This document shows positions 4,010-54,683 of a DNA stretch of 64,000 nucleotides, in pieces. This stretch comes from Bacteroidota bacterium (GTDB lineage Bacteria; Bacteroidota; Bacteroidia; Chitinophagales; Saprospiraceae): the NCBI GenBank assembly GCA_020160935.1, contig JAIUPL010000017.1:62001-126000 (forward strand), given 5' to 3'. How positions within the stretch are numbered: position 1 is the stretch's first letter; each line of letters begins with the position of its first letter. A program made the translations under genes and the position numbers. Under the pieces are notes generated by a model. That model was given only the letters and a program-made list of their open reading frames with translations. It ran no database searches and was not told where the DNA came from.

Positions 4010-4121
4010 GTCGTAAGTCCTGAGTCCTAAGTCTGTAGAGTACACCTTTTTACCCTTGGCATTAACAACAGAAAATACCAAGGGTAAAAAGGTGTACTCT
4101 ACAGACTCAGGACTCAGGACT
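4010..4121. repeat. Palindromic element A (AGTCCTGAGTC units, TAGAGTAC core)
   Basis: Left arm 4016-4059 and right arm 4078-4121 are 44 nt each with one mismatch, around an 18-nt loop. The outer part is tandem AGTCCTGAGTC; towards the apex comes TAGAGTACAC and then CCCTTGGC. It fills the gap between two convergent genes. The left repeat begins inside the stop codon region of the regulator, and the right arm ends 3 nt from the stop codon of the SDR gene. The apex 11-mer CCCTTGGCATT (4053-4063) recurs in elements G and H. Confidence 0.9.
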
Positions 4122-4124
4122 CAT

Positions 4125-4772
4125 TTACCACACAACCTCCGTTTCCCACCTGTCCCTTGGCAACTCATACAACCGCCAGAATTCATCTGCGATGAGGTCC
4201 GGGTCAAATCGTGTGCCGGCCTTGACCATTCCGGTGATCGTTACTGTTGAAGCATGAATACCTAATGGCAAACCTTCCTGTGCAATGGAAAATACCAGGT
4301 TGCGCATGGCTGCTTTGCCCATTCCAAGAGAAGCCAGAAAAGCAGGGGCCTGAATGGCCGTGCCGCCTCCGGTGAAAAACAGGGTGCCATGGCCGCGCTC
4401 CTTCATTTGCGGGAAAACGGCTTGTGCAGATAAAAGTGCGCCTACCACATTGATATTCAGGTCGCTAAGTAATACCGATAATTCCAGTTGCGAAGGAGTT
4501 GCCGGATTGTACGAACTTGCATTGTAATGCAGTACTTCGATATCAGGGTGTTCGGATACTATGCGTTCCAGCACCTGTACAAACGACTCGGAGTCGGCAA
4601 TGTCAGCCGCGTAGGCTTGTGATTTTATTCCTGCCTGGGCCAGTTCGGCCACATAACTATTCAGTTTGTCTTCGTTGCGTGCTACCATGAGGATTTCAAA
4701 TCCTTCACGGCCAAAACGCCTGGCTATCGAAATGCCGTTGCCCGGACCGATACCAACCAGAAGTAATTTCAT
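4125..4772 (-). CDS. SDR-family protein lacking the catalytic Tyr
   Basis: Rossmann-fold short-chain dehydrogenase/reductase relative of 215 aa. The nucleotide loop is GIGPGNG (residues 7-13), and NVVGAL and FFTGGG follow the SDR pattern. The catalytic YxxxK is not kept: the Lys in GMGKAA is preceded at -4 by Leu, and the usual catalytic Ser position is Thr. The C-terminal substrate loop is shorter than in 250-aa SDRs. It may be a non-catalytic or divergent SDR. It lies 8 nt downstream of an aldo/keto reductase on the same strand, so the two are probably co-transcribed. Confidence 0.75.
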   Translation of the reverse strand: MKLLLVGIGPGNGISIARRFGREGFEILMVARNEDKLNSYVAELAQAGIKSQAYAADIADSESFVQVLERIVSEHPDIEVLHYNASSYNPATPSQLELSVLLSDLNINVVGALLSAQAVFPQMKERGHGTLFFTGGGTAIQAPAFLASLGMGKAAMRNLVFSIAQEGLPLGIHASTVTITGMVKAGTRFDPDLIADEFWRLYELPRDRWETEVVW

Positions 4773-4780
4773 GACTGTTA

Positions 4781-5800
4781 TTATTGTATGATTTGCTTGT
4801 ACAAGCCGCCGTAGATCAGTTCACGGACATTATCAGTAGATAAAAATTCATGCGGGAAACCCAGTTCAATGGCGCTGGCGGCTCTCAGTTCGGCAAGCGC
4901 ACTTTCGGGAATGACGACATCCAGGCAACCCAGCGATTCTTCCAGTTGGACAGCCGTGCGTGCGCCGATAATCGGGATAATAGGAACAGCAGGGTTGGTC
5001 TGACGCGTCCAGTTGATGGCTACTTGTGCTGCCGGAACGCCGAGTTGACTTGCCACATCCATTACTTTTTGGGCAATTCCGTTGGCGCGTTCGCTGCGAC
5101 GGGCGCTGTGTTCGACCACGCGACCCGATTCGCCTTTCAGGTATTTGCCTGTCAGTGCACCGCCACCGATAGAACCCCAGGCTGTAACGGCCATGCCGAA
5201 ATGCTGTGCCATAGGCAACAAGTCGCGCTCCGGTGTGCGCTGAAGAAGAGAGTATTCAATCTGCAAACCGGTGAAGGCTGTCCAGCCGCGCAATTCGGCG
5301 AGCGTATTGGCATGGCTCACCATCCAGGCCGGTGTATCCGACACACCAATATAATGCACCTTGCCGCTGCGAATCAGGTCATCGAGGCCTCGCAGCACTT
5401 CGTCGGCAGGGGTCAGATGATCCCAGGCATGTACCCAGAGAATATCCAGAAATTCGGTGTCGAGCCTTTTGAGGCTTTCCTCCACCGAGCGCATCATGTT
5501 TTTTCGATGGCTGCCTGCAAAATTGAGGTCGCCTGTCTGGTCGCGCAGGGTGAATTTACTGGCCACTACAAAATGATGGCGGTCACTTTTGATAAATTCG
5601 CCCAGAAAACGCTCGCTGGCGCCCTCCGTATAACGATTGGCGGTATCGAGAAAATTGCCGCCTTTATTAGCAAAAGTGTCAAAAATGCGCTGGCTTTCTG
5701 CCTTGTCGGCACCCCAGCCCCATTCGGTGCCGAATGTCATGGTGCCCAGGCAAATTTCGGAGACGCGTAGTCCCGATTTCCCAAAGAGTCGGTATTTCAT
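4781..5800 (-). CDS. Aldo/keto reductase
   Basis: NADPH-dependent carbonyl reductase of the AKR TIM-barrel family, 339 aa. The catalytic tetrad is visible: D52 and Y57 (LDTANRY), K82 (ASKF) and H124 (WVHAWD). The C-terminal cofactor loop PIIGAR is present. It resembles the tas/YajO-type branch, whose natural substrates are usually unknown. It forms a two-gene unit with the SDR-like gene downstream. Palindromic element B lies directly upstream of its start codon, so the promoter lies within or beyond that element. Confidence 0.9.
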   Translation of the reverse strand: MKYRLFGKSGLRVSEICLGTMTFGTEWGWGADKAESQRIFDTFANKGGNFLDTANRYTEGASERFLGEFIKSDRHHFVVASKFTLRDQTGDLNFAGSHRKNMMRSVEESLKRLDTEFLDILWVHAWDHLTPADEVLRGLDDLIRSGKVHYIGVSDTPAWMVSHANTLAELRGWTAFTGLQIEYSLLQRTPERDLLPMAQHFGMAVTAWGSIGGGALTGKYLKGESGRVVEHSARRSERANGIAQKVMDVASQLGVPAAQVAINWTRQTNPAVPIIPIIGARTAVQLEESLGCLDVVIPESALAELRAASAIELGFPHEFLSTDNVRELIYGGLYKQIIQ

Positions 5801-5804
5801 ATAA

Positions 5805-5932
5805 AAGTCCTGAGTCTTAAGTCCTGAGTCCTAAGTCTTTAGAGTACACACAAAAATTTCACGGATTAACTGAAAAAAAGCCAAAAGGTTTTAACGTGTA
5901 CTCTAAAGACTTAGGACTTAGAACTTAGGACT
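5805..5932. repeat. Palindromic element B (AGTCCTGAGTC units, TAGAGTAC core)
   Basis: The left arm, about 5805-5849, and right arm, 5896-5932, share the AGTCCTGAGTC/AAGTCT units and the TAGAGTACAC core with element A, with several mismatches between the arms. The loop is unrelated to that of A. It fills the gap between mltG (stop at 5941) and the aldo/keto reductase start at 5800, so it also serves as that gene's leader region. Confidence 0.85.
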
Positions 5933-5940
5933 GACGCCAG

Positions 5941-7050: not shown

Positions 7051-7070
7051 ATCAGGCTTAAAAAAGTGCG

Positions 7071-7078
7071 CAAAGGTA
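7071..7078 (-). promoter_or_regulatory. -7 element (TACCTTTG) upstream of mltG
   Basis: The minus strand has a perfect TAnnTTTG 21 nt before the mltG ATG, in the short gap after panB. Confidence 0.5.
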
Positions 7079-7089
7079 AAACTGCCTGT

Positions 7090-7908: not shown

Positions 7909-7946
7909 AGAAAATTGGTCGGTGAGTGTGTAAGGGCAAAATTGCT

Positions 7947-8009
7947 AGAAACTGTTTTAAAACCCCTGACAAGCCTTTTCGGCCGGTGAGGGGGTTTAAA
8001 ACAGTTTCT
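7947..8009. repeat. Palindromic element D
   Basis: 20-nt arms (7947-7966 and 7990-8009, one mismatch) with sequence AGAAACTGTTTTAAAACCCC on the left. The loop contains a small GCC/GGC hairpin. It lies 38 nt upstream of panB in a 331-bp gap between two minus-strand genes. It is simpler than the other palindromes, without tandem units. The rest of the gap holds the terminator at 8069-8099 and a short TCGCC/GGCGA inverted repeat near 8150. Confidence 0.75.
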
Positions 8010-8068
8010 TAAGGCAAACCGGCGCTTGTCGTAGCAGAAAAAATGTGCAACACAGATCAGGAGTGCCC

Positions 8069-8099
8069 AAAAAAAGAGCCGCACCTCGTTTGGTGCGGC
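8069..8099 (-). terminator. Intrinsic terminator for the lipoprotein gene 8240-9274
   Basis: An 8-bp perfect stem GCCGCACC/GGTGCGGC with a 6-nt loop is followed on the minus strand by TC and a run of seven T. It lies about 140 nt past the stop of the lipoprotein gene. Confidence 0.9.
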
Positions 8100-8239
8100 C
8101 TTGTTTAAAACAAATTATATAATCCCATGAACATGTCAGAACAAAAGCCGTCGCCATGCAACGGCGATGAATGAAAAACAAAAACGTTTTTCAGTCAAAA
8201 ATGTTAGCATGTTATGAATTTTTTTGATGCGAAAGGGCA

Positions 8240-9274: not shown

Positions 9275-9303
9275 TCAATCGGGTGTTTTTACACAGGACG
9301 CTG

Positions 9304-9986: not shown

Positions 9987-10025
9987 TCCTGATTACCGAC
10001 CAATTTTTGGCATCTTTTTGATTCC

Positions 10026-10062
10026 CCGGGTTTTGCTTTTGTGGCGAAACCCGGTTTTTTTT
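10026..10062 (+). terminator. Intrinsic terminator of the Spy-like gene
   Basis: Stem CCGGGTTT/AAACCCGG (10026-10033 and 10047-10054) followed directly by eight T. Confidence 0.9.
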
Positions 10063-10080
10063 GGGGGCAGTGTATTTCCC

Positions 10081-10318
10081 GCAGAGTAGTTTTCCGTAGA
10101 GTAGTTTCCCGCAGATTAGTTTCCCGTAGATGCCGCAGATTTTCCCGCAGATTTTCGCAGATTTTCCCGCAGATTTACGCAGAACGTAGAGTACACACTA
10201 TTTTCGTTTTGAAGAAAAAGGAGTACTCTACGTTCTGCGTAAATCTGCGGGAAAATCTGCGGCATCTGCGGGAAACTACTCTACGTGAAATTACTCCGCG
10301 GGAAACTACTCTGCGGAA
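10081..10318. repeat. Palindromic element C (CCCGCAGATTTT units, TAGAGTAC core)
   Basis: The largest tandem-unit palindrome of this group. The left arm (10081-10196) is a run of TTTCCCGCAGATT-like and GTAGAGTAGTTT units; the right arm (10222-10318) is its imperfect reverse complement. The apex carries GTAGAGTACAC against GAGTACTCTAC, the same core as A and B. It lies between the terminator of the Spy-like gene and the methyltransferase stop at 10326, and with that terminator fills the 339-bp convergent gap. Confidence 0.9.
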
Positions 10319-10325
10319 AACAATC

Positions 10326-11389: not shown

Positions 11390-14197
11390 ATGGAATATAT
11401 CGGTGAGCATCTGATTCCTGGCCAACTGGGCCACTTTTGCGTAGTTCTTTCATTTGTTGCCTCATTGCTGGCTGCATTTTCCTACTTTTTTGCCACCCAA
11501 AAAAGAGAAACGGCTGCTTTTGAGGGCTGGCGCAACCTGGGGCGCTTCGGCTTTTTGCTGCATGGGCTGGCACTGGCGGGCATCATCGGCACCTTGTTTT
11601 ACATTCTGTCAGGCAAGATGTACGAATATCAGTACGCCTGGTCCAACGTGTCGGATGACCTGCCGAAACAATACATATTTTCCGCATTCTGGAAAGAACA
11701 ACAGGGCAGTTTCCTGTTGTGGAGTTTCTGGCATGTGGTGCTGGGTATGGTGCTGATGCTGCGCGGCGGCAAGTGGGAAACGCCCGTACTGACCGTAGTG
11801 GCCCTCGCCGAAGCATTTATTGCCAGTATGATCCTCGGCCTTTATTTCGGCGATTATCGCCTGGGCGCCAGTCCTTTCGACTTGCTGCGCGATACCATGG
11901 ATGCTCCTATTTTCAACCAGGCCGATTATCTGGGGAAAATCAAGGGGAATGGCTTGAATCCGTTGCTGCAAAATTACTGGATGACCATTCACCCGCCTAC
12001 GCTGTTTCTGGGTTTTGCCAGTACAGTGGTGCCTTTTGCTTTTGCCATTGCGGGATTATGGACCCGCGACCACAAAGACTGGTTGCGGCCAGCGCTGCAC
12101 TGGTCGCTGTTTTCAGGCGCAGTGCTGGGTACGGGCATTCTGATGGGTGGCGCCTGGGCATATGAAGCGCTTTCCTTTGCCGGTTACTGGGCATGGGACC
12201 CTGTAGAAAATACCTCGCTGGTGCCCTGGCTTACGCTGGTGGCTGGCATACATACCAACCTCGTAGCCCGGTCAACGGGTTTTTCCATTCGAAGTACATA
12301 CTCTTTTTACCTGCTCACATTTGTGCTGGTGCTGTATTCGACCTACCTGACGCGCAGTGGTATTTTGGGCGACACCTCTGCGCATGCTTTTACGGAAATG
12401 GGCCTGGGAATACAATTGATCCTGTTCATGGCGGTGTTTTCTCTGCTGAGCATTGCACTGTGGCTGGTTCGATACAAGGAAGTGCCGGATGTAAAAGGAG
12501 AGGAGAGCGCTACCAGCCGCGAATTCTGGATGTTTATAGGTTCTCTGGTTTTGTTTTTCTCCGCCGTGCTGATTACCGGCGCCACTTCGCTGCCAGTATG
12601 GAATAAACTGGTGCAGATTTTCAAACCTGACTATATCGGAGCGGCCTTGAAAGACCCGGTAGAGCACCACAATCGGTACCAGTTGTGGATAGCGGTATTT
12701 ATGGGATTGCTGACGGGCATTGGTCAGTTTATGCGATATAGCGAACGGAACTGGAAACTGGTTTCCCGTAAATTTGCCATTCACATGGGCATTGCAGCCA
12801 CAGGTGCACTGGCACTTACACTGCTGAACAGGCTTTGGATCGATGTACGCGCCTGGCAGTTGTACGCTTTCCTCTTTGCTGCCATGTTTGCCGTAGTAGC
12901 CAACCTGGATTACCTGATTTCAGTTACAAAAGGAAATATCAAACTCGCTTCCTCGGCCGTTTCGCACTTCGGTTTCGGGGTGCTGCTGCTGGGTGTATTG
13001 AGCACGGGGCTGGGTAAAGCCTGGATTTCTTCCAATTCATTTGCCATGGACGGGCTGATTGAAGGCGCCAACAACGACGACCTCAATAAAAATGTGTTGT
13101 TGCTGAAACAGTCACCTATGCCTATCAAGGATTTCACGGCCACTTACCTGAAAGACACCATCGAACGCCAGACGCGCACATTTGCTGTGCAGTTTGGTCG
13201 CCGCGATGCTCAGGGCAACCCCACCGGCGAGCAGTTTACCCTGCACCCGAATGTTATGTACGACCGTCAGTTTTCCAAAGTAGTAGCCAGCAACCCTTCT
13301 ACCAAGCACTACTGGAACTACGATATTTTCACCCACGTATCGTCCTTGCCAAAAGCCGAACTCGACCCGGAATTTGCCAAACAACAGGAAGACAGCCTTC
13401 GTTGGGAAAAATACGAAGCCCGCATCGGCGATACTATTTTTACCAAACAGCACTTTGTCATTGTAGATGGCGTGACCAAAACGCCCGAGCACCCGGAATA
13501 CAAACCTGAAAAAGGCGACCTGGCGTACGGCCTGCTGCTGCGCGCCCGCTCCCTGGATGACCCGAATTCATACAATGCGGCGCCAATGTTGTACCTGCGG
13601 GTAGGGCAGGGCGGATTTACATTGCCGGCACAAATTGGACAATTGCAAATGAAAATCCGACTCACGGAAGCCTCGATGGCCAAAATTTTCGAGTCGGAAG
13701 AACAACTGAAATACACCAGTTTTAATGTGAAAGAAGGTTCGACCTTCGATTATCAGGGCTACAAAATCAGTTTTACCGGTGCTGAAAAAGAGATCGAAAA
13801 TCCGGCTTATGCCGCGCAGCCAAACGACATTGCCGTGGCTGCGGGCCTCGATGTCGTAGCGCCCGATGGTCGCAAAGCCCACGTGGCGCCCGTGTACCTC
13901 ATTCGCGACAACCGGCCTTTCAGTCTGAAAGATGAGGCCAGTGATTTTGGCCTGCATTTCCGCTTCGACAACATCGATCCCAAAGCGGGCGTGCTTACCG
14001 TCAGCGTAGCCAAAATGAACGACGAGGCCCGGAAAATTCCACTGGAAATTGCTGAAAACGCCGCCCGTTCCGATTATATCGTGCTGGAAGCCATTATTTT
14101 CCCTGGTATCAACCTGGTGTGGCTTGGATCGATTACCATGCTGCTTGGGATGCTGCTAGCGTTTATTAGAAGGGTGAGAAGTGGGGGGATGAATTAG
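11390..14197 (+). CDS. ccmF: CcmF/CcsA-type cytochrome c heme lyase
   Basis: Large polytopic inner-membrane protein (935 aa) that joins heme to apocytochrome c on the outer face. About 14 membrane helices are seen. The heme-handling WWD region reads WAWDPVENTSLVPW, and flanking His signatures IHPP and the CcmF TRSGIL motif are present. A large soluble external part (about 545-895) precedes the last membrane helix. It works with CcmE, whose gene starts at the left edge, and would mature proteins such as the diheme enzyme at 32825. The stop codon lies inside element E. Confidence 0.92.
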   Translation: MEYIGEHLIPGQLGHFCVVLSFVASLLAAFSYFFATQKRETAAFEGWRNLGRFGFLLHGLALAGIIGTLFYILSGKMYEYQYAWSNVSDDLPKQYIFSAFWKEQQGSFLLWSFWHVVLGMVLMLRGGKWETPVLTVVALAEAFIASMILGLYFGDYRLGASPFDLLRDTMDAPIFNQADYLGKIKGNGLNPLLQNYWMTIHPPTLFLGFASTVVPFAFAIAGLWTRDHKDWLRPALHWSLFSGAVLGTGILMGGAWAYEALSFAGYWAWDPVENTSLVPWLTLVAGIHTNLVARSTGFSIRSTYSFYLLTFVLVLYSTYLTRSGILGDTSAHAFTEMGLGIQLILFMAVFSLLSIALWLVRYKEVPDVKGEESATSREFWMFIGSLVLFFSAVLITGATSLPVWNKLVQIFKPDYIGAALKDPVEHHNRYQLWIAVFMGLLTGIGQFMRYSERNWKLVSRKFAIHMGIAATGALALTLLNRLWIDVRAWQLYAFLFAAMFAVVANLDYLISVTKGNIKLASSAVSHFGFGVLLLGVLSTGLGKAWISSNSFAMDGLIEGANNDDLNKNVLLLKQSPMPIKDFTATYLKDTIERQTRTFAVQFGRRDAQGNPTGEQFTLHPNVMYDRQFSKVVASNPSTKHYWNYDIFTHVSSLPKAELDPEFAKQQEDSLRWEKYEARIGDTIFTKQHFVIVDGVTKTPEHPEYKPEKGDLAYGLLLRARSLDDPNSYNAAPMLYLRVGQGGFTLPAQIGQLQMKIRLTEASMAKIFESEEQLKYTSFNVKEGSTFDYQGYKISFTGAEKEIENPAYAAQPNDIAVAAGLDVVAPDGRKAHVAPVYLIRDNRPFSLKDEASDFGLHFRFDNIDPKAGVLTVSVAKMNDEARKIPLEIAENAARSDYIVLEAIIFPGINLVWLGSITMLLGMLLAFIRRVRSGGMN

Positions 14198-14315
14198 GAT
14201 TTTGGGGACTTTAAGGATTAGAAGGATTCCCGTTGTGATGTTTAAATTTAAAAAAATTAATGCGGCATCACAACGGGAATCCTTCTAATCCTTAAAGTCC
14301 ACAAAATCCTAATTC
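14191..14315. repeat. Palindromic element E containing both convergent stop codons
   Basis: 50-bp arms (14191-14240 and 14266-14315) with a single mismatch and a 25-nt loop. Units AAGGATTAGAAGGATT and GATTTTG are visible. The left arm begins within the last codon of ccmF and includes its TAG; the right arm reaches into the TGA of the methyltransferase gene (14314-14316). The whole convergent gap is therefore one palindrome. Confidence 0.92.
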
Positions 14316-15114
14316 ACCCCCTCGCTTTTATGGAATACACCATCGGAATAATCCCTTCCAGCCCCTGAATCCTGTAATTCCCATCCTCCCCTTTGACCGT
14401 TTTATCAAAACAGTCGTAAGGCGAATAAGGATACTCGTTCAGAAACTCGATGCGCAGGCCATGCTGGATGAGGCTGTTGATGATTTCCGACAGGCTGTGA
14501 TTCCAGCCATATTCTTTGTATTCAATTTCGGCATATCGTTCCGCATAGGTACCTACCTGTTCGGTGAGGATTACTTCGCCGCCGTGGTAAGGATATTTCA
14601 GGTACTCCATGCGATCATCCAGCATCCACACAACCGGATGAAAATCAGCGATATAGAAAAAGCCGCCGGGTTTCAGGAAATGTGCGATCACGGCAGCCCA
14701 TCGATCCAGATCGGGTAGCCAGCCGATCGTGCCGTAGGAAGTAAAAATGATGTCGTACTGGCCTTCGAGGTGCTGCGGCAGGTCATACAGATTGCAACAT
14801 ACAAATTGGGCAGGCAATTGCAACTCCGCACTGAGTTCGCGGGCATACTCGATGGCTTTGTCCGACAGGTCGCAGCCTGTGACGGTTGCGCCCTGTCGAG
14901 CCCATGACAGGGTATCCTGCCCGAAATGACATTGCAGGTGCAAGAGGGATTTGCCGCGCACATCGCCCACTTCGCGCAATTCGATGGGAGTCAGGCTGTT
15001 AACGCCTTTTTTCCAGTCCTCGACGTTGTAAAAAGCGCTGTTTTTATGCACTTCTGTGCGGAGGTTCCAGCCTTCGCGGTTGGCCTCGAAATAGGTGTTC
15101 CAGTTGTTGTTCAT
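14314..15114 (-). CDS. Class I SAM-dependent methyltransferase
   Basis: A 266-aa cytoplasmic methyltransferase of the Methyltransf_11/25 type. The SAM-binding motif I region is LLHLQCHFGQDT, the acidic end of strand 2 is VTGCDLSDKA, and FTSYGTIGWLPDL corresponds to motif IV. The frame opens upstream to 15222, but the ATG at 15114 is used because it avoids overlap with the lipoprotein gene ending at 15137 and gives the usual start NNNWNTYFEANREGWN. The substrate is unknown. It lies 22 nt downstream of the lipoprotein gene, possibly co-transcribed. Confidence 0.82.
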   Translation of the reverse strand: MNNNWNTYFEANREGWNLRTEVHKNSAFYNVEDWKKGVNSLTPIELREVGDVRGKSLLHLQCHFGQDTLSWARQGATVTGCDLSDKAIEYARELSAELQLPAQFVCCNLYDLPQHLEGQYDIIFTSYGTIGWLPDLDRWAAVIAHFLKPGGFFYIADFHPVVWMLDDRMEYLKYPYHGGEVILTEQVGTYAERYAEIEYKEYGWNHSLSEIINSLIQHGLRIEFLNEYPYSPYDCFDKTVKGEDGNYRIQGLEGIIPMVYSIKARG

Positions 15115-20242: not shown

Positions 20243-20359
20243 TGCAACACGGATTGCGCGGATATTAACGGATCACACGGATTTGATTTACATGTTAAGT
20301 ACCATTGCGTTGAAATCAAATCCGTGTGATCCGTTAATATCCGCGCAATCCGTGTTGCA
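20243..20359. repeat. Palindromic element F, perfect 47-bp arms
   Basis: Arms 20243-20289 and 20313-20359 are perfect reverse complements, with a 23-nt loop. Units ACACGGATTnnnCGGAT are visible and relate to the GCGGAT units in elements K and L. It starts one nt after the stop codon of the thioredoxin-like gene and ends 40 nt before aroC, so it separates two genes in the same direction. Confidence 0.93.
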
Positions 20360-21479: not shown

Positions 21480-21490
21480 ATGGGGATTTT

Positions 21491-21640
21491 GTGTTTTTGT
21501 GTTTTAGTATTTTTGTGTTTTGGTGTTTTTGTGTTTTGGAGGTACTTTGCTCATGGCATCATTGATTAAAATGCCAAGGGCGAAGCACCTCCAAAACACA
21601 AAAACACAAAAACACTAAAACACAAAAACACTAAAACACA
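21491..21640. repeat. Palindromic element G (GTGTTTT units, 48-nt core)
   Basis: Left arm about 21491-21541 made of GTGTTTTTGTGTTTTAG-type units, right arm about 21590-21640 its reverse complement. The centre 21542-21589 is a 48-nt non-repetitive core with a small TGGCAT/ATGCCA stem. The same core occurs inverted in element H (about 40 of 48 identical). It lies between aroC and the tocopherol-cyclase-like gene. Confidence 0.92.
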
Positions 21641-21654: not shown

Positions 21655-22617
21655 ATGGATACGCTACGCCGCTTGCGCGCTCTTTGGCACCCCGATGAAT
21701 ACCACGGCTGGGGCCGTACACACCGCTATTTCGAAGGCTGGTATTTTAAGGTGGTAAGCCGCGACGAACGTTGTGCGATGGCTTTTATTCCGGGCATTTC
21801 CATGGGGGCTCACGGCGAGCAACACGCCTTTGTGCAGGTGATGTACGGCTCGGAATGCCGCTCGGCGTACCATCGTTTCGCCGCCTCGGATTTTGTGCCG
21901 GCGCAGGACCGCTTTGAAGTAGCGCTGGGCAACAACTGGTTTTCTGCCGGCAGTATCGACCTCGACTTGCCGGGCATTTCCGGCACGATTCGTTTCCGCG
22001 ATACGCATGCCTGGCCTAAAATGCTTGGCGCACCAGGCATTATGGGCTGGTATTCTTTTGTGCCGTTTATGGAATGCAACCACGGCGTGGTGAGCCTGCA
22101 CCACCAACTCGAAGGCGTCTTGCAGATAGACGGCCAAGAAGTCGATTTTAACGGCGGCAAAGGCTACATCGAAAAAGATTGGGGTTCTTCTTTCCCGCGG
22201 GCCTATGCGTGGATGCAAAGCAATCATTTCGACACCTGCGATCGGGCATCGCTCATGGCCTCGGTGGCACATATTCCCTGGCTATTCAGCCATTTTATTG
22301 GCTATATCAGCGGTTTTTGGCTGGAAGGCAGGCTGTTTAAATTTGCCACCTACACCGGTGCACAAAAATTTCTAAGCATTGCCGATGACGGACTGGAACT
22401 GATTTTTAAAAGCGCGCGCAACGAATTGCGCATTGCGGCCCGCCAGGCGCCAGGCACTGCACTGGCTTCGCCACTTTCAGGAGATATGACCGGAAAAATC
22501 AATGAAAGCCTGCAGGCCACCCTGCGCGTAGAACTGCTGGAAAACAAACAGCGCATTTTTGAAGGCACAGGCCGCCATGCCGGACTGGAAGTGGCGGGCG
22601 ATACGAGGGTGTTGTGA
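21655..22617 (+). CDS. Tocopherol-cyclase-like protein
   Basis: A 320-aa protein of the tocopherol cyclase family (lipocalin-like beta-barrel pairs). The start HPDEYHGWGRTHRYFEGWYFK is the family hallmark, and GKGYIEKDWGSSFP is the second typical block. Plant and cyanobacterial members close the chromanol ring of vitamin E; bacterial relatives outside phototrophs have no known substrate, so the reaction here is open. It is flanked on both sides by copies of one palindromic element (G and H) in opposite orientation. The stop codon lies inside H. Confidence 0.85.
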   Translation: MDTLRRLRALWHPDEYHGWGRTHRYFEGWYFKVVSRDERCAMAFIPGISMGAHGEQHAFVQVMYGSECRSAYHRFAASDFVPAQDRFEVALGNNWFSAGSIDLDLPGISGTIRFRDTHAWPKMLGAPGIMGWYSFVPFMECNHGVVSLHHQLEGVLQIDGQEVDFNGGKGYIEKDWGSSFPRAYAWMQSNHFDTCDRASLMASVAHIPWLFSHFIGYISGFWLEGRLFKFATYTGAQKFLSIADDGLELIFKSARNELRIAARQAPGTALASPLSGDMTGKINESLQATLRVELLENKQRIFEGTGRHAGLEVAGDTRVL

Positions 22618-22771
22618 AGATGTGTTTTGGTGTTTTGGTGTTTTTGTGTTTTGGTGGTGCTTCATTCTTGGCATTCTAATTAATGATGCTATGAGCAACG
22701 TACTACCAAAACACTAAAACACTAAAACACCAAAACACCAAAACACAAATTCACAAAACACATCTTCACAA
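22612..22771. repeat. Palindromic element H, inverted relative of G
   Basis: Arms of GTGTTTTGGTGTTTTG-type units, with an outermost perfect block TTGTGAAGATGTGTTTT (22612-22628) pairing with 22755-22771. The core 22656-22703 is the reverse complement of the core of G. The left arm contains the TGA of the tocopherol-cyclase-like gene and the right arm the TGA of the bestrophin gene. Confidence 0.92.
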
Positions 22772-27609: not shown

Positions 27610-27649
27610 GCGTTCGGAGGCTGATACTTATAAAACAGCCTCCGAACGC
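27610..27649. repeat. 13-bp stem-loop downstream of the carbonic anhydrase gene
   Basis: GCGTTCGGAGGCT (27610-27622) and its perfect reverse complement (27637-27649) around a 14-nt loop. No T run follows on either strand, so it is a possible transcript-end hairpin but not a standard terminator. Confidence 0.7.
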
Positions 27650-30130: not shown

Positions 30131-32821
30131 ATGTCCTCCTTCTTGCTGAGACAAGTTATTTTTTGTAGTTGTTTGATACTGAGTGCAGTGGCTTCTGCGC
30201 AGTCGCCTGAAAAAAACTTTGCAGCCATGAGTTGCGATGAATTGTCGGAAGAAATTGCCGTGTTATGCGGTTCCGGCAAATTTGCCGAATCAATTCCTTT
30301 AGCCCGCCTCATGGTGGAAAAAGCCAGGCGCGATTCATCTGAATCAAATGCCATACAAGGCAATAGCCTCGACATGCTGGGTTATGTTCTCCACCATAGC
30401 GACATGTGGGCCGAAGCGCAAACGTATTTGCAGGCCGGTGTGGAGCACTCAATTAAATACCTGGGCGAACAGCATGAAGACTATATGACGCACCTGTCCA
30501 ACCTGGCCATGCTGCACTTGGATATGGGAGAAAATGCAAAGGCGGTGTCCGAACTTGAGACCACTGTACGTCTTGCGAAGCAATATCTGGAGCAAGACAA
30601 TCCGTATCTGCCCATTATGGTCAATAACCTTGGCTTGGCTTACGAGCAATCCGGCGCTTTTGACCGGGCGCTGGAAGAATATGAGCAAGCCAGGCAGTTA
30701 ACGGAAAGCACCCTGGGAAAAAATCATTTGCGTTATGGTTTGCGCCTTTCCAACATCGCTGCCTTGTATAAAAAAATCGGCAAACCCGCCCCTGCGCTCG
30801 AATTGACCCTGGAGGCAAAAAAAATCGTGGAGAACTCGGTGGGGCATAAGCACTATTATTATGCCGTCGCGATTAGCAACCTCATGAATAACTATTTGCT
30901 GCTGAATCGCAACGAAGAGGCGGCTGCTCTGAGTCCTGAATTGTTGGATATGTTGGAAAAACCGGCCATTCGCAATACGGCCGACGCTTTCAACCTCGCT
31001 GCTGTCATGGGGCAGTTGTACCTGGCAACCGGGCAATATGAACGTTGCGCTGCTTACATGCAGGAACAACTCGACCGATGTTTGCAATTGTATCCGCGTT
31101 TGTACAGCAAGCATACTGTATTGGCAGAGTATGCCATGAAGGCACTGGAGGGAAGTGGCCGGATGGAAGATGCTGCCCGGCTGGCTATCCAGCATAATGG
31201 ATATTCCCTTCTGGAAATAAGGGAAAACCTGATCGATTTCAGTGAACGCGAGCAATTGCAGTATTACAATACTACTTTGAAATGGCGGCACCGCTCCTTC
31301 ATGCAATTTGCCTTGCGACACCCCGAATTTCCGGAACTCGCCGCCGCGGCATACAATTATGAAATGACGGTGAAAGGTATATCACTCATGAGTCGCCGCC
31401 AGTTGTTTCAATCGCTGCGCAACAACCCGGATGCCCAACTGAATGCACAATTCGAGGCATGGCAGGCGCTTCAGAAAAATATTTCCCGGCAATATGCACT
31501 CCCTCCGGAAAAACGGATGTCGCATGTAGACAGTCTGTTAGCGCGCTCAAACGAACTGGAACGAAATCTGGCGCTGGGCTCCAATATGTTCAGAGAGGCC
31601 AGTAGTGCAACTTTGTGGAAAGACGTTCAATCGGCTTTGGGGCCCGATGAGGCGGCTATCGAACTTGGAATGGTCGACAATATTTCAGGCGACAGCACCT
31701 GGTATGTAGCCTGGGTGATACGGCCTCGGGAAGCAAATCCGCAGCAGATTGTGCTGTTCGAAGAAAAAGAATTGCGTTCGATGTCGGCCATTCGGAAATT
31801 ATATTCCTCAGAATCCAATCCTTCGGATGGGAAAAACCTGCGGGAATTGCTTTGGAATCCCTTACAGGCTTCTTTGCAAGGTGTAAAATCGTTGTATTTC
31901 GCTCCTGCCGGCTTCCTGCATCAGATCAATTTTGCCGCCATTCCAGTGTCTGATCAGCAGGTTGTATCCGACCTGATGCAGGTGCACCGGCTGATCAGTA
32001 CGAATCAGGTGCCTGATTTGAAACGATCGACACGTGTAGCAGCGTTGCCGGTGAGCGCACTCGTCATGGGTGGCATTCTTTATGATGCGGACCACATTTT
32101 GCAGAATGCTTCTTCAGGTATGCCCGATACGACCACATTTGTTATACGAAACAGAGATGGTGTGCCTTACACTGACTGGGATTATCTGCCTGGCTCGCAC
32201 CAGGAAGCAAAACAGGTGCAGGATCGCTTAAAGAAGACAGGCATAGACGCTGTTTTTGCCGATGGCCGGAATGCCTCCGAAGAAATGTTTAAACAGGCCA
32301 TTCAACCAGCGCCCTCATTACTACACCTCGCTACACACGGCTTTTTTATTCAAACACCTGTGCCGGGTGCTACCAACGGTTTTGCTTCGGCCGACAATCC
32401 GATGGCCCGTTCCGGGCTGGCACTCGCCGGCGCCAACCGTGTCTGGAAAGGGATGGCTGCACCCGAAAATAAAGAAGACGGTATCCTGACTGCTTTGGAA
32501 ATCAGCCGCCTGGACCTGAATGGTACGCAACTTGCCGTACTGTCGGCCTGCGGAACTGGCCAGGGAAAAATGGAAGGGGCAGAAGGCGTTTTCGGGCTGC
32601 AAAGGGCATTCAAAATGGCGGGCGTACACTATGTTATCATGACACTCTGGAGCATTCAGGATACGCATGCACAGCAGTTTATGGACTTTTTTTACGATGC
32701 CTGGCTGCAACAGAAACAGAACGTACCAGATGCTTTCCGATTGGCGCAGCACCAAATGCGTCTGTTGTACGCCAAACCCAATCAGCCCATGGCCTGGGCG
32801 GGGTTTTTGTTGCTGGAATGA
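30131..32821 (+). CDS. Exported TPR-CHAT protease-like protein
   Basis: An 896-aa protein with a signal peptide (cleavage near ASA|QSP). About 60-470 are tetratricopeptide repeats (for example NNLGLAYEQSGAFDRALEEYEQA). The C-terminal CHAT domain (about 590-896) is a caspase-fold cysteine protease relative with both dyad residues: H736 in LATHGF and C807 in LSACGTG. The domain is thus active by sequence and located outside the cytoplasm. It is the third gene of the sigma operon, 11 nt after the anti-sigma-like gene. A close relative is encoded at 45056-47926. Confidence 0.9.
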   Translation: MSSFLLRQVIFCSCLILSAVASAQSPEKNFAAMSCDELSEEIAVLCGSGKFAESIPLARLMVEKARRDSSESNAIQGNSLDMLGYVLHHSDMWAEAQTYLQAGVEHSIKYLGEQHEDYMTHLSNLAMLHLDMGENAKAVSELETTVRLAKQYLEQDNPYLPIMVNNLGLAYEQSGAFDRALEEYEQARQLTESTLGKNHLRYGLRLSNIAALYKKIGKPAPALELTLEAKKIVENSVGHKHYYYAVAISNLMNNYLLLNRNEEAAALSPELLDMLEKPAIRNTADAFNLAAVMGQLYLATGQYERCAAYMQEQLDRCLQLYPRLYSKHTVLAEYAMKALEGSGRMEDAARLAIQHNGYSLLEIRENLIDFSEREQLQYYNTTLKWRHRSFMQFALRHPEFPELAAAAYNYEMTVKGISLMSRRQLFQSLRNNPDAQLNAQFEAWQALQKNISRQYALPPEKRMSHVDSLLARSNELERNLALGSNMFREASSATLWKDVQSALGPDEAAIELGMVDNISGDSTWYVAWVIRPREANPQQIVLFEEKELRSMSAIRKLYSSESNPSDGKNLRELLWNPLQASLQGVKSLYFAPAGFLHQINFAAIPVSDQQVVSDLMQVHRLISTNQVPDLKRSTRVAALPVSALVMGGILYDADHILQNASSGMPDTTTFVIRNRDGVPYTDWDYLPGSHQEAKQVQDRLKKTGIDAVFADGRNASEEMFKQAIQPAPSLLHLATHGFFIQTPVPGATNGFASADNPMARSGLALAGANRVWKGMAAPENKEDGILTALEISRLDLNGTQLAVLSACGTGQGKMEGAEGVFGLQRAFKMAGVHYVIMTLWSIQDTHAQQFMDFFYDAWLQQKQNVPDAFRLAQHQMRLLYAKPNQPMAWAGFLLLE

Positions 32822-36520: not shown

Positions 36521-36563
36521 AGGTATTTGAAAAATTTAAACATATTGTTTTTAAAATAAAATC

Positions 36564-36667
36564 AACACAAAGTTTTTTAACCACGAAGGACACAAAGGGC
36601 TGCACAAAGGGCGCAAAGTATTGATTACAAATACTTTGTGTCCTTCGTGGTTAAAAAACTTTGTGTT
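36564..36667. repeat. Palindromic element I, perfect 34-bp arms
   Basis: Arms 36564-36597 and 36634-36667 are perfect reverse complements. The loop has a nested CAAAGTATT/AATACTTTG stem and tandem CACAAAGGG, CGCAAAG units. It ends 13 nt from the stop codon of the DUF2306-like gene. Confidence 0.92.
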
Positions 36668-36680
36668 AAAATGAAATGTG

Positions 36681-38743: not shown

Positions 38744-38878
38744 GTTCGGCTTCGCCTCACAGTGGGGGACTTGGGATTGGGCGGAAAAAGCGGATTTTAT
38801 TGATTTTCGTGGCCTTGCGGCCACATGTTTTGATTTTTATGCCCAATCCCAAGTCCCCACCGTGAGGCGAAGCCGAAC
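38744..38878. repeat. Palindromic element J (TTCGGCTTCGCCTCA family)
   Basis: Outer 17-nt blocks GTTCGGCTTCGCCTCAC (38744-38760) and the reverse complement (38862-38878), middle block around GGGGACTTGGGATTGGGC, and apex GTGGCCTTGCGGCCAC (38809-38824). It shares outer and apex modules with elements K and L. It lies between the divergent SRPBCC and M15 peptidase genes. Confidence 0.9.
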
Positions 38879-39813: not shown

Positions 39814-39825
39814 TTAATGTTAGAA

Positions 39826-39969
39826 CGCTCGGCTTCGCCTCACTTGTTTTATTTGGGATTTTGCGGATCAGGTGGATTTAACAGATTATGGCCTGTCGGC
39901 CATAAAAATCCATACAATCCGCCTGATCCGCAATATCCCAAGTCCCATATTCATGAGGCGAAGCCGAAT
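39826..39969. repeat. Palindromic element K (TTCGGCTTCGCCTCA family)
   Basis: Outer blocks CTCGGCTTCGCCTCA (39828-39842) and TGAGGCGAAGCCGA (from 39954), a middle block with TTGGGATTTTGCGGATCAGG and its complement, and apex ATGGCCTGTCGGCCAT (39888-39903). It lies between the stops of the M15 gene (39813) and the acyltransferase gene (39989). The GGATTTTGCGGATC unit is shared with L. Confidence 0.9.
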
Positions 39970-39988
39970 GGAGTAAAAATCTCCTACG

Positions 39989-44829: not shown

Positions 44830-45056
44830 AGCAAAGGGGCAAGAAGCAAGGGGCAAAAGGCAAGGGGCAAAGGGCAAGGGGCAAAAGGCAAGAAGCAAAA
44901 GGCAAGGGGCAACAAGCGAAATGGGGAAATAGTGGTTCTGCCTTTTGGAGCCTTTTGCTTCTTGCCCCTTGCCTTTTGCCCTTTGCCCCTTGCCTTTTGC
45001 CCCTTGCCCCTTGCCCCTTGCTTTTTGCTTCTTGCCTTTTGCCTTTTGCCCTTTGC
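44830..45056. repeat. Palindromic element M (GGCAA units), touching the CHAT stop codon
   Basis: The left arm (about 44830-44917) is a run of GGGGCAA, AGGCAA and AGAAGCAA units; the right arm (about 44950-45056) is its reverse-complement style with a different unit order. The right arm runs into the first base of the CHAT gene stop (45056-45058). Different unit order and number in the two arms suggest expansion after the palindrome formed. Single-arm copies of the same unit lie at 1168-1202. Confidence 0.9.
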
Positions 45057-47926
45057 TATTCCACAAGCACAAATCCCGCCCAGACATACGCATCGCCATA
45101 TTTGGCACGCATGTCCGATTGAGTAGCGCGGAAAGCATCGGGCACCGACATTTTGCCATCGAGCCAATGCTTGTAGAACGTGCTCATGAACACCTGCGTT
45201 TGAAAATCAGGTACTTGCCACAGCGACATGATGAGGTAGCGCACGCCTGCTATTTTGAAAGCGCGTTGCAGACCATACACGCCTTCATTGCCGTACAGAT
45301 CGCCGAGGCCGGTTTCGCAGGCCGACAACACGGCGAGTTCTGTATTCGACAGGTTCATCTGACTGATTTCATAGGCAGTGAGGATACCATCTTCCATTCC
45401 CGGACTGGCAGGTTTGCCTGTTTTCCAGGTGTAGTTGCCGCCGGCCAGCACCAGTCCCGATCGAATCATGGGTTGATCCGACACTTTGAAGGCTTTCTCT
45501 TCGCCGGTCTGTTTGTTGTTTGCCTGCACATTTTTGGGATCTGGAAAGAAAAAGCCGTGCGTAGCGATGTGCAGAATACGGGGCGACGGATTGTGTTCGC
45601 CGAGGGCTTTGAAAGACTCTTCGGTGGCGTCCGTACCTTCTTTTAAGGCAGTGGCGATCCCTTGTGCACCCATGATTTTGGCGGCTTCCTTGATTTCAAC
45701 ATCTGTCCAGCGGAGGTAATTCCAGTTATCAGCGCGCAGGGTGGAGTCGTTTTCCGCAAAACTGGAACTTCGTGGTGTGGCTGCCCCGTCGGTAGACGAA
45801 TCGTCTGATGCGCCTGTATTCACCAGACCGTACTGAATGCCGCCATACAATTGAGCCGTATTATTGGCGATTTGAGCGGGTGCCTGCTCTGCAACCAGTT
45901 GGCGGGTGCTGCCCACGATGGTCAGGTGGTATTTCTCGGCAATCGTTTTTCCATCCGGTGTGGGTATCGCCCCCAGGTTGAGTCGATACAATTTGCCTGT
46001 TTCCGCACAATATACGGTGGTGTTTTCAGGCAAAACGGCCGCAACGGGTTTCCAGATCAAATTGTACAGTTGGTCGCCTTTTTTGCTGCTGGCGTACAAT
46101 TCGTTGTAAACAGCAGGACGTGGCTGGCCTTCGAATTTCAGTACAGCGTTGAGTTGATCTATTTCAAAAAGCGGGATAAAAATAGGCTTCGTTGTGCCGG
46201 ATTGCAGTACCAGGGCAGCGTAAAATACGCTGTCGGTACTGTGTTGCGCACTTTTGCTGTAATAAGCGAAACGAACAAATTCGACGGCAGCCTCGCCAGG
46301 TTTCAATTGTTGCTGCACATCCTGCCAGCGCACATTGCGCCTGGCTTCGGCATAACCGGCAATGTTGCGGGCAAGGCCTTTTTCAAGGTCGTTGGCCTGG
46401 GTTTCGAGGCTTGCGATCGAAGCACTGTCGCGTTTTGCGGTCGGCTTTGAGTAGGCATCTCCCAGGCGTCGTTGTATGGATTTTAACAGGATCACCTGGT
46501 CTGCATCGGCCTGATCGGCAGCAAGAAGATTTCGCGCACGCACAGCAGCATTGAGCAGAAAACCTTTTGAATAAAGCGCATTATCGAAACAGATAGCAGC
46601 AAGCGATGAAGGCGAGGGTGGGGCCGGGCTGGTAACCTGCGCCATCGACAGGGCACAGTCCTGGAAGTAGGAATATTTATCCACATAATCCCGGGTTTCT
46701 TTTTCTGAAAGATGGTGCAAGGCATTGTCCATCAATTTCTGGAAGATGTTGGACAAACGCAGGTGCAAGGCCTCTGATTTCCCATATTGCTTCATGTTGT
46801 TGTACAGGATGGCCAGGTTTATCAGCGTAAATAAATTTTCAGCATTATCGGGACCGAACAAGGTTTCTGTGGTTCCCAGGGAGTTTAGCAGCAGTGGCTC
46901 CGCTTTTTCAAATTCGCCTGTTCCAATGTACAACACCCCAAAGTTGTTGGCCGTAGATGAATAACTCCAGTTGTCTTTACCGTATATTTTTTCCTTTTTG
47001 GCGAGCGCTTCCGAAAAGTATGCCTTGGATTTTTCAAGTTGATTTGTTTTGGAATACAACGTTGCCAGGTCGTGCAGTACTTCGACATACTGCCTGTCGT
47101 CCTTTCCAAACGCTTTTTCATAAATAGACAAAGCCTGCAGGTAGATTTGTTCCGATTTTTGGAAATCATTGAACCTGCCGTATGCGCTGGCGAGGGTTTT
47201 CAAACTATTGGCATAAATCGGGTCGTTTTCGCCTGTCAACCTGAGCGACAAATCCGTGGCTTCCTGTGCGTATTGGAGTGCTTTTTTGTAATTCCCCATT
47301 CGTAAATAGAAATGAGAAACATTGGCTGTTATCATTGCATATTCCTCCGTCTCCTTTCCGCCGACTTGTCCATTGATCTCCCGTGCTTCCAAGAACATCG
47401 CCTCAGCCTCCTCCGTTCTGCCGAGTATGGTATTGCAGATGGCCAGGTTGTTCAGGTTGCCGCGATACAAACTGTTGGTCTTGCCATCCGTTTTTTCAAT
47501 AATCAATTTTGTTTCAAAGGCAAAATTAACGGCTTTTTCAAATTGGCTCAGTTGCATGTAGCCGTACCCGATCATATACAGGGTTCTGGCATATTCCATG
47601 TGCATTCTGCCAAACACCTTTTCCTGTATTCCCCTGGCCTGATTCAACCACCGGAATCCTTCGTCCACATTCCGGCTCAACATACAGATCCTGCCGTGAT
47701 GGTAGCAACAGGCAGCATAAGTAGCCGATTCGGGCCCCAGTTTTTCCAGTGCAATGGTTTCGGCTTGCTTGTTCAATTCTATGGCATGGACAAAGTCTTT
47801 CTTGTTACTCAAAGCCTTGGAGGCTTGAAGAAGGCTGTCTGCCTGACGAACAGCGACGGAGTCAATGGCCTGCGCAGCGAGGCTGCAGGAAGTGAAGCAA
47901 AGAATGAAAAATAACAGTTTTCGCAT
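45056..47926 (-). CDS. Exported TPR-CHAT protease-like protein
   Basis: A 956-aa protein with a signal peptide (near SLAAQA), ten or so tetratricopeptide repeats (about 60-400; for example NNLAICNTILGRTEEAEAMF), a helical linker, and a CHAT domain (about 630-956). The caspase-like dyad is intact: H790 in IATHGFF and C870 in LSACETG. It is a close relative of the 30131-32821 protein. Upstream on the same strand are a TPR membrane protein and an ECF sigma factor, so both CHAT proteins in the window are tied to a sigma factor, though the order is different here. Confidence 0.9.
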   Translation of the reverse strand: MRKLLFFILCFTSCSLAAQAIDSVAVRQADSLLQASKALSNKKDFVHAIELNKQAETIALEKLGPESATYAACCYHHGRICMLSRNVDEGFRWLNQARGIQEKVFGRMHMEYARTLYMIGYGYMQLSQFEKAVNFAFETKLIIEKTDGKTNSLYRGNLNNLAICNTILGRTEEAEAMFLEAREINGQVGGKETEEYAMITANVSHFYLRMGNYKKALQYAQEATDLSLRLTGENDPIYANSLKTLASAYGRFNDFQKSEQIYLQALSIYEKAFGKDDRQYVEVLHDLATLYSKTNQLEKSKAYFSEALAKKEKIYGKDNWSYSSTANNFGVLYIGTGEFEKAEPLLLNSLGTTETLFGPDNAENLFTLINLAILYNNMKQYGKSEALHLRLSNIFQKLMDNALHHLSEKETRDYVDKYSYFQDCALSMAQVTSPAPPSPSSLAAICFDNALYSKGFLLNAAVRARNLLAADQADADQVILLKSIQRRLGDAYSKPTAKRDSASIASLETQANDLEKGLARNIAGYAEARRNVRWQDVQQQLKPGEAAVEFVRFAYYSKSAQHSTDSVFYAALVLQSGTTKPIFIPLFEIDQLNAVLKFEGQPRPAVYNELYASSKKGDQLYNLIWKPVAAVLPENTTVYCAETGKLYRLNLGAIPTPDGKTIAEKYHLTIVGSTRQLVAEQAPAQIANNTAQLYGGIQYGLVNTGASDDSSTDGAATPRSSSFAENDSTLRADNWNYLRWTDVEIKEAAKIMGAQGIATALKEGTDATEESFKALGEHNPSPRILHIATHGFFFPDPKNVQANNKQTGEEKAFKVSDQPMIRSGLVLAGGNYTWKTGKPASPGMEDGILTAYEISQMNLSNTELAVLSACETGLGDLYGNEGVYGLQRAFKIAGVRYLIMSLWQVPDFQTQVFMSTFYKHWLDGKMSVPDAFRATQSDMRAKYGDAYVWAGFVLVE

Positions 47927-49429: not shown

Positions 49430-49561
49430 GGTGCTGATGATTTATTGCATCTCTTGGCCTTCAAGGTAAGCGGTTTTTGAAAAAATATTTTTCAAGGCCT
49501 TAATTAGTACAGGGCGCAGGTGCATTATCGCCATGGGAACAAACGTACTGCGCAAAACAGA

Positions 49562-51138: not shown

Positions 51139-51194
51139 TGTCGTAGAGTGTTGATTTTCATTTTGTTATAAAGCAACTTGGCGGCCAGAAGCGA

Positions 51195-52493: not shown

Positions 52494-52563
52494 GGTTTAA
52501 TGCGTGGAAAGATAAGTGATTTGTGAAAAAATGTAGGTTTTTTGTTGGGGGCCGGGGGGGAGG

Positions 52564-54273: not shown

Positions 54274-54309
54274 AGTGTGATTGATTGGACAAGGAGGGAA
54301 AGGATTTTT

Positions 54310-54626
54310 GGGCCTTGTTCGGCTTCGCCTCACTGCGGCTGGGGGAAAAGGATTTTGCGGATCGTGCGGATTAAAAGGATTTTTTGTGGCCTGACGGCCA
54401 CTTTGTTGATAGTTTTTTATGATTTGAGCCAGATATGATCTTGTTTGCAAGAGTAATAATTTGACATTCCGGAATCAAGGAATAATCGTCTTGTGGTTTT
54501 TCCACATTCAGAATTCTCAAAAAATCAAAAAAAGTGGCCGTCAGGCCACAAAAAATCCCTTTAAATCCGCACGATCCGCAAAATCCTTTTCCCCCAGCCG
54601 CAGTGAGGCGAAGCCGAACAAGGCCC
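54310..54626. repeat. Palindromic element L, 92-bp arms with a 132-nt loop (TTCGGCTTCGCCTCA family)
   Basis: Left arm 54310-54401 and right arm 54534-54626 are near-perfect reverse complements. Each arm ends inward with GTGGCC-GACGGCCAC-type apex blocks (GTGGCCTGACGGCCAC), so the apex module of J and K is present twice. Other modules are TTCGGCTTCGCCTCA, GGATTTTGCGGATC and GGGGGAAAAGG. The long loop 54402-54533 is AT-rich without a clear gene. With the tail at 54631-54683 it fills the 430-bp gap between the M48-like and caspase-like genes. Confidence 0.93.
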
Positions 54627-54630
54627 CATT

Positions 54631-54683
54631 CTCAGCAGTGAGGCGAAGCCGAACAAGGTTCAATATCCATAAGCCGAAGCCGA
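54631..54683. repeat. Extra single-arm units next to element L
   Basis: A further AGTGAGGCGAAGCCGAACAAGG copy (54637-54658) and an AAGCCGAAGCCGAAC run follow the right arm of L. They are tandem duplicates of the outer module only and reach to within 21 nt of the caspase-like gene stop. Confidence 0.8.

Follow-up and report, generated by a model that had tools for sequence, protein, structure and literature searches.

The window analysed here is a stretch of 64,000 nucleotides from a Saprospiraceae bacterium (bases 62001-126000 of contig 35; the host genome, labelled G000, measures 5.84 Mb in 51 contigs). Its intergenic regions hold a series of long palindromes, most of which have arms built from short tandem words. 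Such elements recur across the host sequence studied, where they lie mostly at gene 3' ends, change in both arms together and have related copies at unlinked sites. The host sample comprised 1.128 Mb, window included (an earlier set covered 864 kb), and was compared with 0.43 Mb of a sister genome, G043, which shares synteny with the window and with parts of contigs 24 and 35. Positions elsewhere are written as contig:position (for example C24:11522). Genes were called with a home-made caller, which limits all results on gene ends and gap classes.

A preliminary description of the window had named 12 intergenic inverted repeats and a simpler case at 7947, and all 13 are indeed present. With the finder set to seed 7 and a score of at least 14, the window yields 14 repeats, namely these 13 and a small hairpin at 27610. 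Arm length ranges from 21 to 87 nt across the 13 elements, which are given below without strand:

4016-4121: AGTCC-word palindrome with TAGAGTACACC core and CTTGGCATT tip; spans a convergent gap, leaving 6 and 3 bp to the gene ends; 48-nt arms with 2 mismatches; same family in G043.
5813-5932: AGTCC-word palindrome built on a TAGAGTAC core; 3' of a YceG-like gene, with a gene 3' end 8 bp away; arms 37 nt, 3 mismatches; ortholog present in G043.
7947-8009: simple hairpin lacking tandem words; its GAAACTGTTTTAAAACCCC arms measure 21 nt with 1 mismatch; a gene 3' end lies 230 bp away; not in the corresponding G043 gap.
10075-10320: CGCAGA-word palindrome around a GTAGAGTAC core; 87-nt arms with 10 mismatches; a canonical hairpin and T-run lie upstream, at about 10028-10057 (by eye); G043 ortholog shorter.
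14185-14321: GGATTAG-word palindrome; 56-nt arms with 2 mismatches; extends into the ends of both convergent genes, by 13 and 8 bp.
20243-20359: CGGATT-word palindrome, 47/47 pairs, between a gene and the chorismate synthase gene.
21490-21640: GTGTTTT-word palindrome with GGCAT tip, 3' of the chorismate synthase gene; arms 70 nt, 9 mismatches; G043 counterpart with an extra stretch in the loop.
22612-22756: GTGTTTT-word palindrome between convergent genes; 45-nt arms with 4 mismatches; overlaps one gene end and lies 9 bp from the other; G043 ortholog.
36564-36667: CACAAAG/CACGAAG-word palindrome, 34/34 pairs, 13 bp from a gene 3' end; of a word family that recurs across phyla; gap not alignable to G043.
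38744-38878: composite of TTCGGCTTCGCCTCAC outer arm, GGATTGGGCGG words and GTGGCC..GGCCAC core; outer arm 24 nt, 1 mismatch; G043 ortholog longer.
39820-39970: composite with TTCGGCTTCGCC outer arms (outer limits by eye); best block 39853-39941, its 26-nt arms with 2 mismatches; no counterpart in G043, in which the called genes overlap by 4 bp.
44834-45019: GGCAA-word palindrome pairing in many registers; arms 70 nt, 6 mismatches; G043 ortholog shorter.
54310-54626: composite of TTCGGCTTCGCC, GGATTTTGCGGAT and GTGGCC..GGCCAC with a long loop; arms 76 nt, 3 mismatches; the loop of the G043 ortholog contains a second palindrome, of CACAAAG-type words.

Most of these elements had been said to touch a stop codon. 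Eight of the 13 overlap a called gene 3' end or lie within 13 bp of one (10 of 13 within 50 bp); 7947 and 54310 lie farther off, and 38744 sits in a gap called divergent.

The same placement is found genome-wide. In the 1.128 Mb of host sequence 183 inverted repeats score at least 20, none of them centred in a called gene, and among gaps of at least 60 bp those between convergent genes are occupied in 66 of 92 cases, tandem gaps in 87 of 352 and divergent gaps in 19 of 133 (19/27, 19/155 and 5/34, respectively, in G043). Per kb of gap this amounts to about 2.2 (convergent), 0.8 (tandem) and 0.4 (divergent) occupied gaps. In the 864-kb set a gene 3' end lies at a median distance of 11 bp and a 5' end at one of 82 bp, and 49 tandem-gap elements lie nearer the upstream stop against 13 nearer the next start. 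The elements persist nearly exclusively in intergenic DNA, chiefly at gene 3' ends; an enrichment of inverted repeats after bacterial stop codons is already known (PMC13155455). By extrapolation the host genome has about 950 elements. They exceed what chance would give: 130 repeats of score at least 20 were found in 864 kb against none in two 300-kb order-3 Markov copies. The laxer finder used for the set of 183 gave none of score at least 16 in three 189-kb order-2 Markov copies of intergenic sequence, and joined coding sequence (600 kb) gave one at this level and none of at least 18. The predicted folding energy has a median of -92.8 kcal/mol over 179 of the 183 elements (those above 300 bases were left out).

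Most arms consist of tandem words of 7-11 nt, such as AGTCCTG, AGTTATG, GGCAAAA, GTTATTGG, GTTGATGAGG, GTGTTTTG, CGCAGATTT and GTGAGAGG; several families have heptamer arms and others periods of 8-11 nt, both senses being present as palindromes. As had been proposed from the window, units are reused at other loci: TTTCCCGCAGATT occurs 34+35 times in the host genome, its reversed control not once. With hand-picked word lists 160 of the 183 host elements could be sorted into 19 families, leaving 23 in none; 13 of the 160 (TTTGACAA, GACAAGG and GGACTTTAGTCC) are hairpin repeats and not word strings. Inner pieces are common to different families (GTAGAGTA in 27 elements, TGGC near the tip in 45). 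Arms contain more G than C in 134 of the 183 elements, less in 36 and equal amounts in 13. The words moreover have a prevailing polarity: read from outside to inside, 379 of 394 12-mers (those in at least four elements) never appear in the opposite sense, though overlapping 12-mers are not independent. In the congener G021 (for example C23:147895-148211) TTTCCCGCAGATT is also found in one-sided direct arrays, so that the palindrome is not its sole form, and at G000 C51:50455-50708 two tandem TTTGACAA hairpin units are identical over 222 bp.

The two arms of an element change together. Across 18 same-family orthologs of host and G043, 58 of 741 arm columns had changed identically in both arms (mirrored), 57 in one arm and 13 otherwise, whereas 1000 shuffles gave a mean of 9.6 and a maximum of 18 mirrored columns. 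Arm divergence between the two genomes is 12.6 and 13.0% of these columns. The 18 pairs come from 30 orthologous pairs of score at least 20; the 12 dropped (fewer than 25 columns, or identity not above 0.7) include swapped families and some same-family pairs, for instance C35:72075 and C24:102569. An earlier comparison of 17 elements with 4-nt flanks counted 45 mirrored against 127 one-sided columns and was redone without flanks; with such flanks the window element at 14185-14321 has 7 mirrored and 7 one-sided columns, and that at 20243-20359 has 5 and 4. Of 149 host elements with an assigned family and arms no shorter than 30 nt, 124 have arm 1 closest to its own arm 2 and 12 more are tied. 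The finder prefers matched arms, by which one-sided changes are undercounted and the likeness of arm 1 to its own arm 2 is helped. In 107 tandem-gap elements (host and sister) the transcript strand carries 83 G-T, 115 A-C and 121 other mismatches, so that in this set there is no G-T excess. A wobble control with canonical terminators was discarded, as the terminator finder favours G-T pairs by construction.

Taken together, these results fit correction of one DNA arm from the other (template switching) better than stepwise selection on RNA pairs, even though selection may still have acted, as very long hairpins may tolerate any single mismatch. The preliminary description had invoked template switching, and for the upkeep of arms the mirrored columns are consistent with it: the arms are kept alike by a process acting on both. 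There is a precedent for the creation of hairpins by this route (Monttinen and Loytynoja 2022, PMC8794818), and the maintenance outlined there resembles ours in that mirrored changes keep stems paired. That case, as presented in the sections available, concerns RNA genes and leaves dispersal, polarity and species spelling unexplained.

Sites and word families were also compared with the sister genome. Among 148 orthologous adjacent gene pairs (score at least 16) an element is present in both genomes at 33, in the host only at 6, in the sister only at 4 and in neither at 105. Judged by eye, the family was swapped at 8 of the 33 common sites, and at three sites an inner palindrome was replaced or added:

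C24:11522, 14917, 18788, 23056, 58607; C35:26645, 41533, 46310: family swapped between host and G043.
C24:5700, 85791; C35:116310: inner palindrome replaced or added.

When only unlike elements in tandem gaps are considered, both genomes are occupied at 4, one alone at 4 and 2, and neither at 84; this is above independence (p 0.0003), yet the co-occurrence is weak evidence because operon-internal gaps are mixed with true ends. The copy at C24:31110 looks decayed in host and sister. Words are also spelled differently by species: with the ACCACNNAGGNCACNNAG pattern, applied to 8 genomes (two of which gave no match), the CATAG word appears in 17 of 22 matches in G006 and in none of 33 in the host, and CTAAG in all 4 of G021. 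Clear word palindromes were seen in 4 of 10 congeners (G005, G006, G021 and G023; 20-kb stretches, several of them picked near known word or chorismate synthase matches). Four genomes from three other genera of the family gave no repeat of score 20 in 20 kb each, and six genomes of the order (three at 20 kb, three at 4-8 kb) gave one single repeat, which does not look word-built.

It might be argued that the elements are simply selected terminators, in which point mutation, slippage and compensatory selection on RNA build and keep a hairpin and the likeness of words is a by-product. A strong hairpin just past the stop codon is what they share with intrinsic terminators, including those hairpins that lack a U-tract (PMC8355165), and the 66 occupied convergent gaps would follow readily. 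So would the persistence of sites, as of 43 orthologous gaps occupied in at least one species 33 are occupied in both, and the retention of a palindrome where the word family differs. At convergent ends canonical terminators are, in addition, rarer beside an element (13 of 132 ends) than without one (13 of 52; Fisher p 0.017). At tandem ends, however, there is no such deficit (17/88 with an element, 39/267 without), T-runs are few, and the G-T excess that stepwise RNA selection might leave is missing. Selection for pairing alone does not explain why words, polarity and some loops are common to unlinked sites, and the elements are far longer than intrinsic terminators as described in the available part of that source, and are made of repeated words. 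We regard this explanation as unlikely, though it deserves to be kept in mind. Of 220 gene ends with elements, 30 also have a canonical terminator; in 12 of these the T-run begins 8-29 nt before the start of the element, and in 13 the element comes before the T-run. A word palindrome soon after the T-run of a canonical terminator can be seen in the window at 10028-10075 and in the gap at G000 C24:18788. A role at transcript ends, possibly in termination, may be inferred; the scarcity of canonical terminators at convergent ends with an element speaks for some role, the few T-runs speak against a classical terminator, and the selection for a hairpin at transcript ends that had been proposed earlier is compatible with these results.

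More can be learned from the relations between copies, above all from their loops, which are not palindromic. For unlinked CGCAGA elements 45 of 66 pairs have loops more alike than the 95% level between families, and for GTTGATG elements 24 of 55; strong loop pairs divide by orientation 22 to 18 (CGCAGA) and 11 to 12 (GTTGATG). Between the CGCAGA palindromes at C14:32208 and C24:103983 identity reaches 96.7% over 150 bp, and the C24 copy is nested in further CGCAGA words. The GTTATTGG arms of one G043 element symmetrically enclose a GGATTAG palindrome of which a near copy lies elsewhere, whereas the host ortholog keeps the GTTATTGG tip. Elements have no clear fixed terminus. The preliminary claim to this effect largely stands, since among 16 unlinked pairs (the loop-spanning ones among 40 listed of 982) the likeness runs 11-59 nt past one side or stops inside the palindrome in 12; it does not extend to the other 4, where likeness stops near both edges.

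The earlier proposal that palindromes are built locally, by template switching from nearby words, finds support in the mirrored changes between arms and in the published creation of hairpins by such switching (PMC8794818). Three observations speak against it. Family words within 1 kb outside the elements number 32 against 31.9 expected from elements of other families (n=160), and because they are not enriched there the idea of nearby donors fails. One polarity prevails (379/394), while local building predicts both unless the process is strand-biased, and loops are common to distant copies in two families. We consider local building improbable. The prevailing polarity, the shared loops and the lack of local donor words together argue that the palindromes were dispersed as such.

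Dispersal brings known repeat systems into view. Repetitive extragenic palindromic (REP) families, stem-loop families, heptamer repeats and template-switch hairpins are each already known. Our elements resemble REPs, REP doublets forming hairpins (REPINs) and bacterial interspersed mosaic elements (BIMEs) in being dispersed, intergenic, hairpin-forming, present in many copies and variable by species (compare PMC3733652). They differ in having arms of tandem 7-11 nt words, many families per genome and some nested palindromes. Could they nonetheless belong to the REP/REPIN superfamily proper, moved by resident Y1 transposases of the REP-associated tyrosine transposase (RAYT) type? Two Y1_Tnp matches exist in G000, matches are present in 10 of 13 genomes tested (G000 included), GTAG occurs within the GTAGAGTA core (27/183 elements), and a few families (GACAAGG, GGACTTTAGTCC) are REP-like in look. 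Yet one of the two host matches, locus L265 on C42, is flanked by a AGGGCGTTGCCC palindrome and not by a word palindrome; this 41-nt-arm repeat just upstream of the RAYT-like gene represents a separate REP-like family. Most stems of tagged REPs measure 6-9 bp in the portion of PMC3733652 available, as against arms of 21-87 nt here, and instead of an unpaired GTAG/CGTC tag on a short stem the elements carry GTAG inside paired arms. Membership in this superfamily is hardly probable, and the one locus read (L265) does not support Y1 transposases as movers. At G000 C51:8313, 67794 and 68731 there are two small hairpins per arm (GGACTTTAGTCC, GCGCCATTTATGGCGC and variants) that look like true REPINs.

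Bacterial miniature inverted-repeat transposable elements (MITEs) are non-autonomous copies at unlinked sites, and in both respects our elements are like them. They seem unlike MITEs in that 10 single-species sites, read by eye, offered no target-site duplication or clean junction, although the flanks there are too diverged for this to weigh much. Moreover, 14 long-spaced arm pairs were found in 1.56 Mb, 6 of them with called genes inside, and a scan of five proteins (from 5 of the 6 pairs; the three C24:154465 genes were excluded) found no transposase, in agreement with the earlier remark that none was to be seen. The five proteins are a GH18, an ABC, a DUF4129 and a HAD hydrolase match and one without a match; Por_Secre_tail, a secretion-system sorting domain that points to Bacteroidota, was found in one protein. 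The earlier view that the elements are unlike REPs or MITEs was thus right as to anatomy and less so as to dispersal, which looks similar, and we file them as dispersed intergenic hairpin repeats that are neither REP nor MITE.

Cyanobacterial short tandemly repeated repetitive sequences (STRRs) are tandem intergenic heptamers, as are the arm words of several families here. The TAACTGA heptamer repeats are likewise intergenic and tandem; they occur in Bacteroidetes, Cyanobacteria and Beggiatoaceae, with no mechanism evident in the available text (MacGregor 2015, PMC4679880), and GTTATCAG words contain the reverse complement of TAACTGA. Those are direct repeats, however, mostly just before starts (in one Beggiatoaceae genome), whereas ours are palindromes at gene ends. 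Repeated intergenic stem-loop families were described for 40 genomes (Cozzuto 2008, PMC2267715), whose abstract makes no mention of tandem-word arms. Triplex repeats (PMC4666352) were set aside by their description as a different motif. In searches limited to open-licence papers we found no account of tandem-word-arm palindromes with prevailing polarity and species spelling. That the elements are neutral litter, simple words expanded by mutation into palindromes tolerated only in non-coding DNA, would agree with the absence of gene-centred elements and the decayed look of the C24:31110 copy in both species, and is nevertheless very improbable in view of the 3'-end bias within intergenic DNA and the conserved occupancy between host and sister.

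For the palindromes as a whole we put at roughly even chances that they are dispersed, non-autonomous hairpins of a REP- and MITE-like kind, corrected by template switching and preserved where transcripts end, where they may work as terminators lacking a U-tract. Many families would have spread as palindromes, in the manner of REPINs and MITEs, presumably through some mobilising or converting activity. Template switching or hairpin conversion at replication would copy changes, slipped words and tip replacements between arms; as the mirrored changes support, arms would stay alike while words drift because changes are copied from arm to arm. Continued copying and replacement would give each species its own spelling. 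At gene 3' ends the elements would be harmless and might serve as bidirectional terminators or 3'-end barriers.

Several results weigh against this reading. Purifying selection alone can yield the observed placement. About half of the arm changes are one-sided. For one word, unlike the other common ones, polarity is not fixed: CTTTGTG is outermost in 13 host elements and its complement CACAAAG in 3. Loop sharing is weak in AGTCC (16/190) and AGTTATG (13/120) elements and little is seen in the rest, and likeness ends within 10 nt of both palindrome edges in only 4 of the 16 unlinked pairs. The single-species sites (6 host-only, 4 sister-only), read by eye, show no clean insertion junction or target duplication, their flanks being too diverged. 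The RAYT locus has another repeat beside it, and no mobilising enzyme was found among the Y1 locus and the five inter-arm proteins. Finally, T-runs follow at only 18 of 230 ends in transcript direction, so that the U-tract of an intrinsic terminator is lacking at most ends even though its hairpin at the gene 3' end is present. For the study of template switching the elements are attractive all the same: they offer naturally occurring series of long orthologous palindromes from which the correction of arms can be read off, and template switching becomes testable as a force shaping bacterial gene ends.

Words of this kind are not confined to the host's relatives. The CACRAAGGNCACRAAGGNCACRAAG word of the 36564 element occurs in at least 119 stretches of GTDB species genomes, in records named Acidobacteria, Chloroflexi, Planctomycetes, Verrucomicrobia, Proteobacteria, Cyanobacteria, Spirochaetes and others (some of them isolates). 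In the 80 loci listed there are 86 arrays (several from one genome and hence not independent; 13 in frames of at least 250 codons), with the complement only downstream in 50, only upstream in 6 and in neither direction in 30; the reversed-word control for these loci gave 3 downstream and 1 upstream. The host's commoner polarity of CTTTGTG/CACAAAG is opposite to that of other phyla. Sites in the listed loci number 84 (15 convergent, 4 divergent, 29 tandem, 18 inside frames, 18 at edges) and, as these loci hold 42 convergent and 26 divergent gaps, the gene-end excess is slight. Among 54 arrays on IMG/VR contigs (some near-duplicates) the complement lies downstream in 18, upstream in 2 and is absent in 34. 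Tentatively, and with somewhat less than even confidence, we suggest that word palindromes form a class of mobile or convertible hairpins that spans phyla and has so far gone undescribed, with word families common to distant phyla, respelled across the genome of each species, nesting, replacing one another at fixed gene-end sites and spread by machinery yet to be known. The question raised is why hairpins of unrelated phyla should use the same short words, and the published TAACTGA repeats may belong to a wider word vocabulary. Further searches were more restricted in outcome: an AGTCC palindrome pattern matched only its own genome among 392 genomes of the phylum (a lower bound, given the narrow gap limit of 20-50), the element at 36560-36672 had no match in a plasmid search, and an Rfam search of the window returned nothing at gathering score.

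Some minor observations may be added. On the IMG/VR contigs L266, L267, L294 and L304, CACRAAGG arrays without complement are often single-sense; that of L304 lies directly before an ATG, and other word strings (GTGAGCAGTGAGTAG, TCAGTTATCAG) stand beside the arrays of L267 and L294. Within the window, 54707-58411 on the minus strand encodes a protein of 1235 aa with a weak match, below the family cut-off, to an EACC1-associated caspase domain. The large proteins encoded at 30131-32818 (plus strand) and 45059-47926 (minus strand) are weakly like the FxSxx-COOH system TPR protein, likewise below cut-off.

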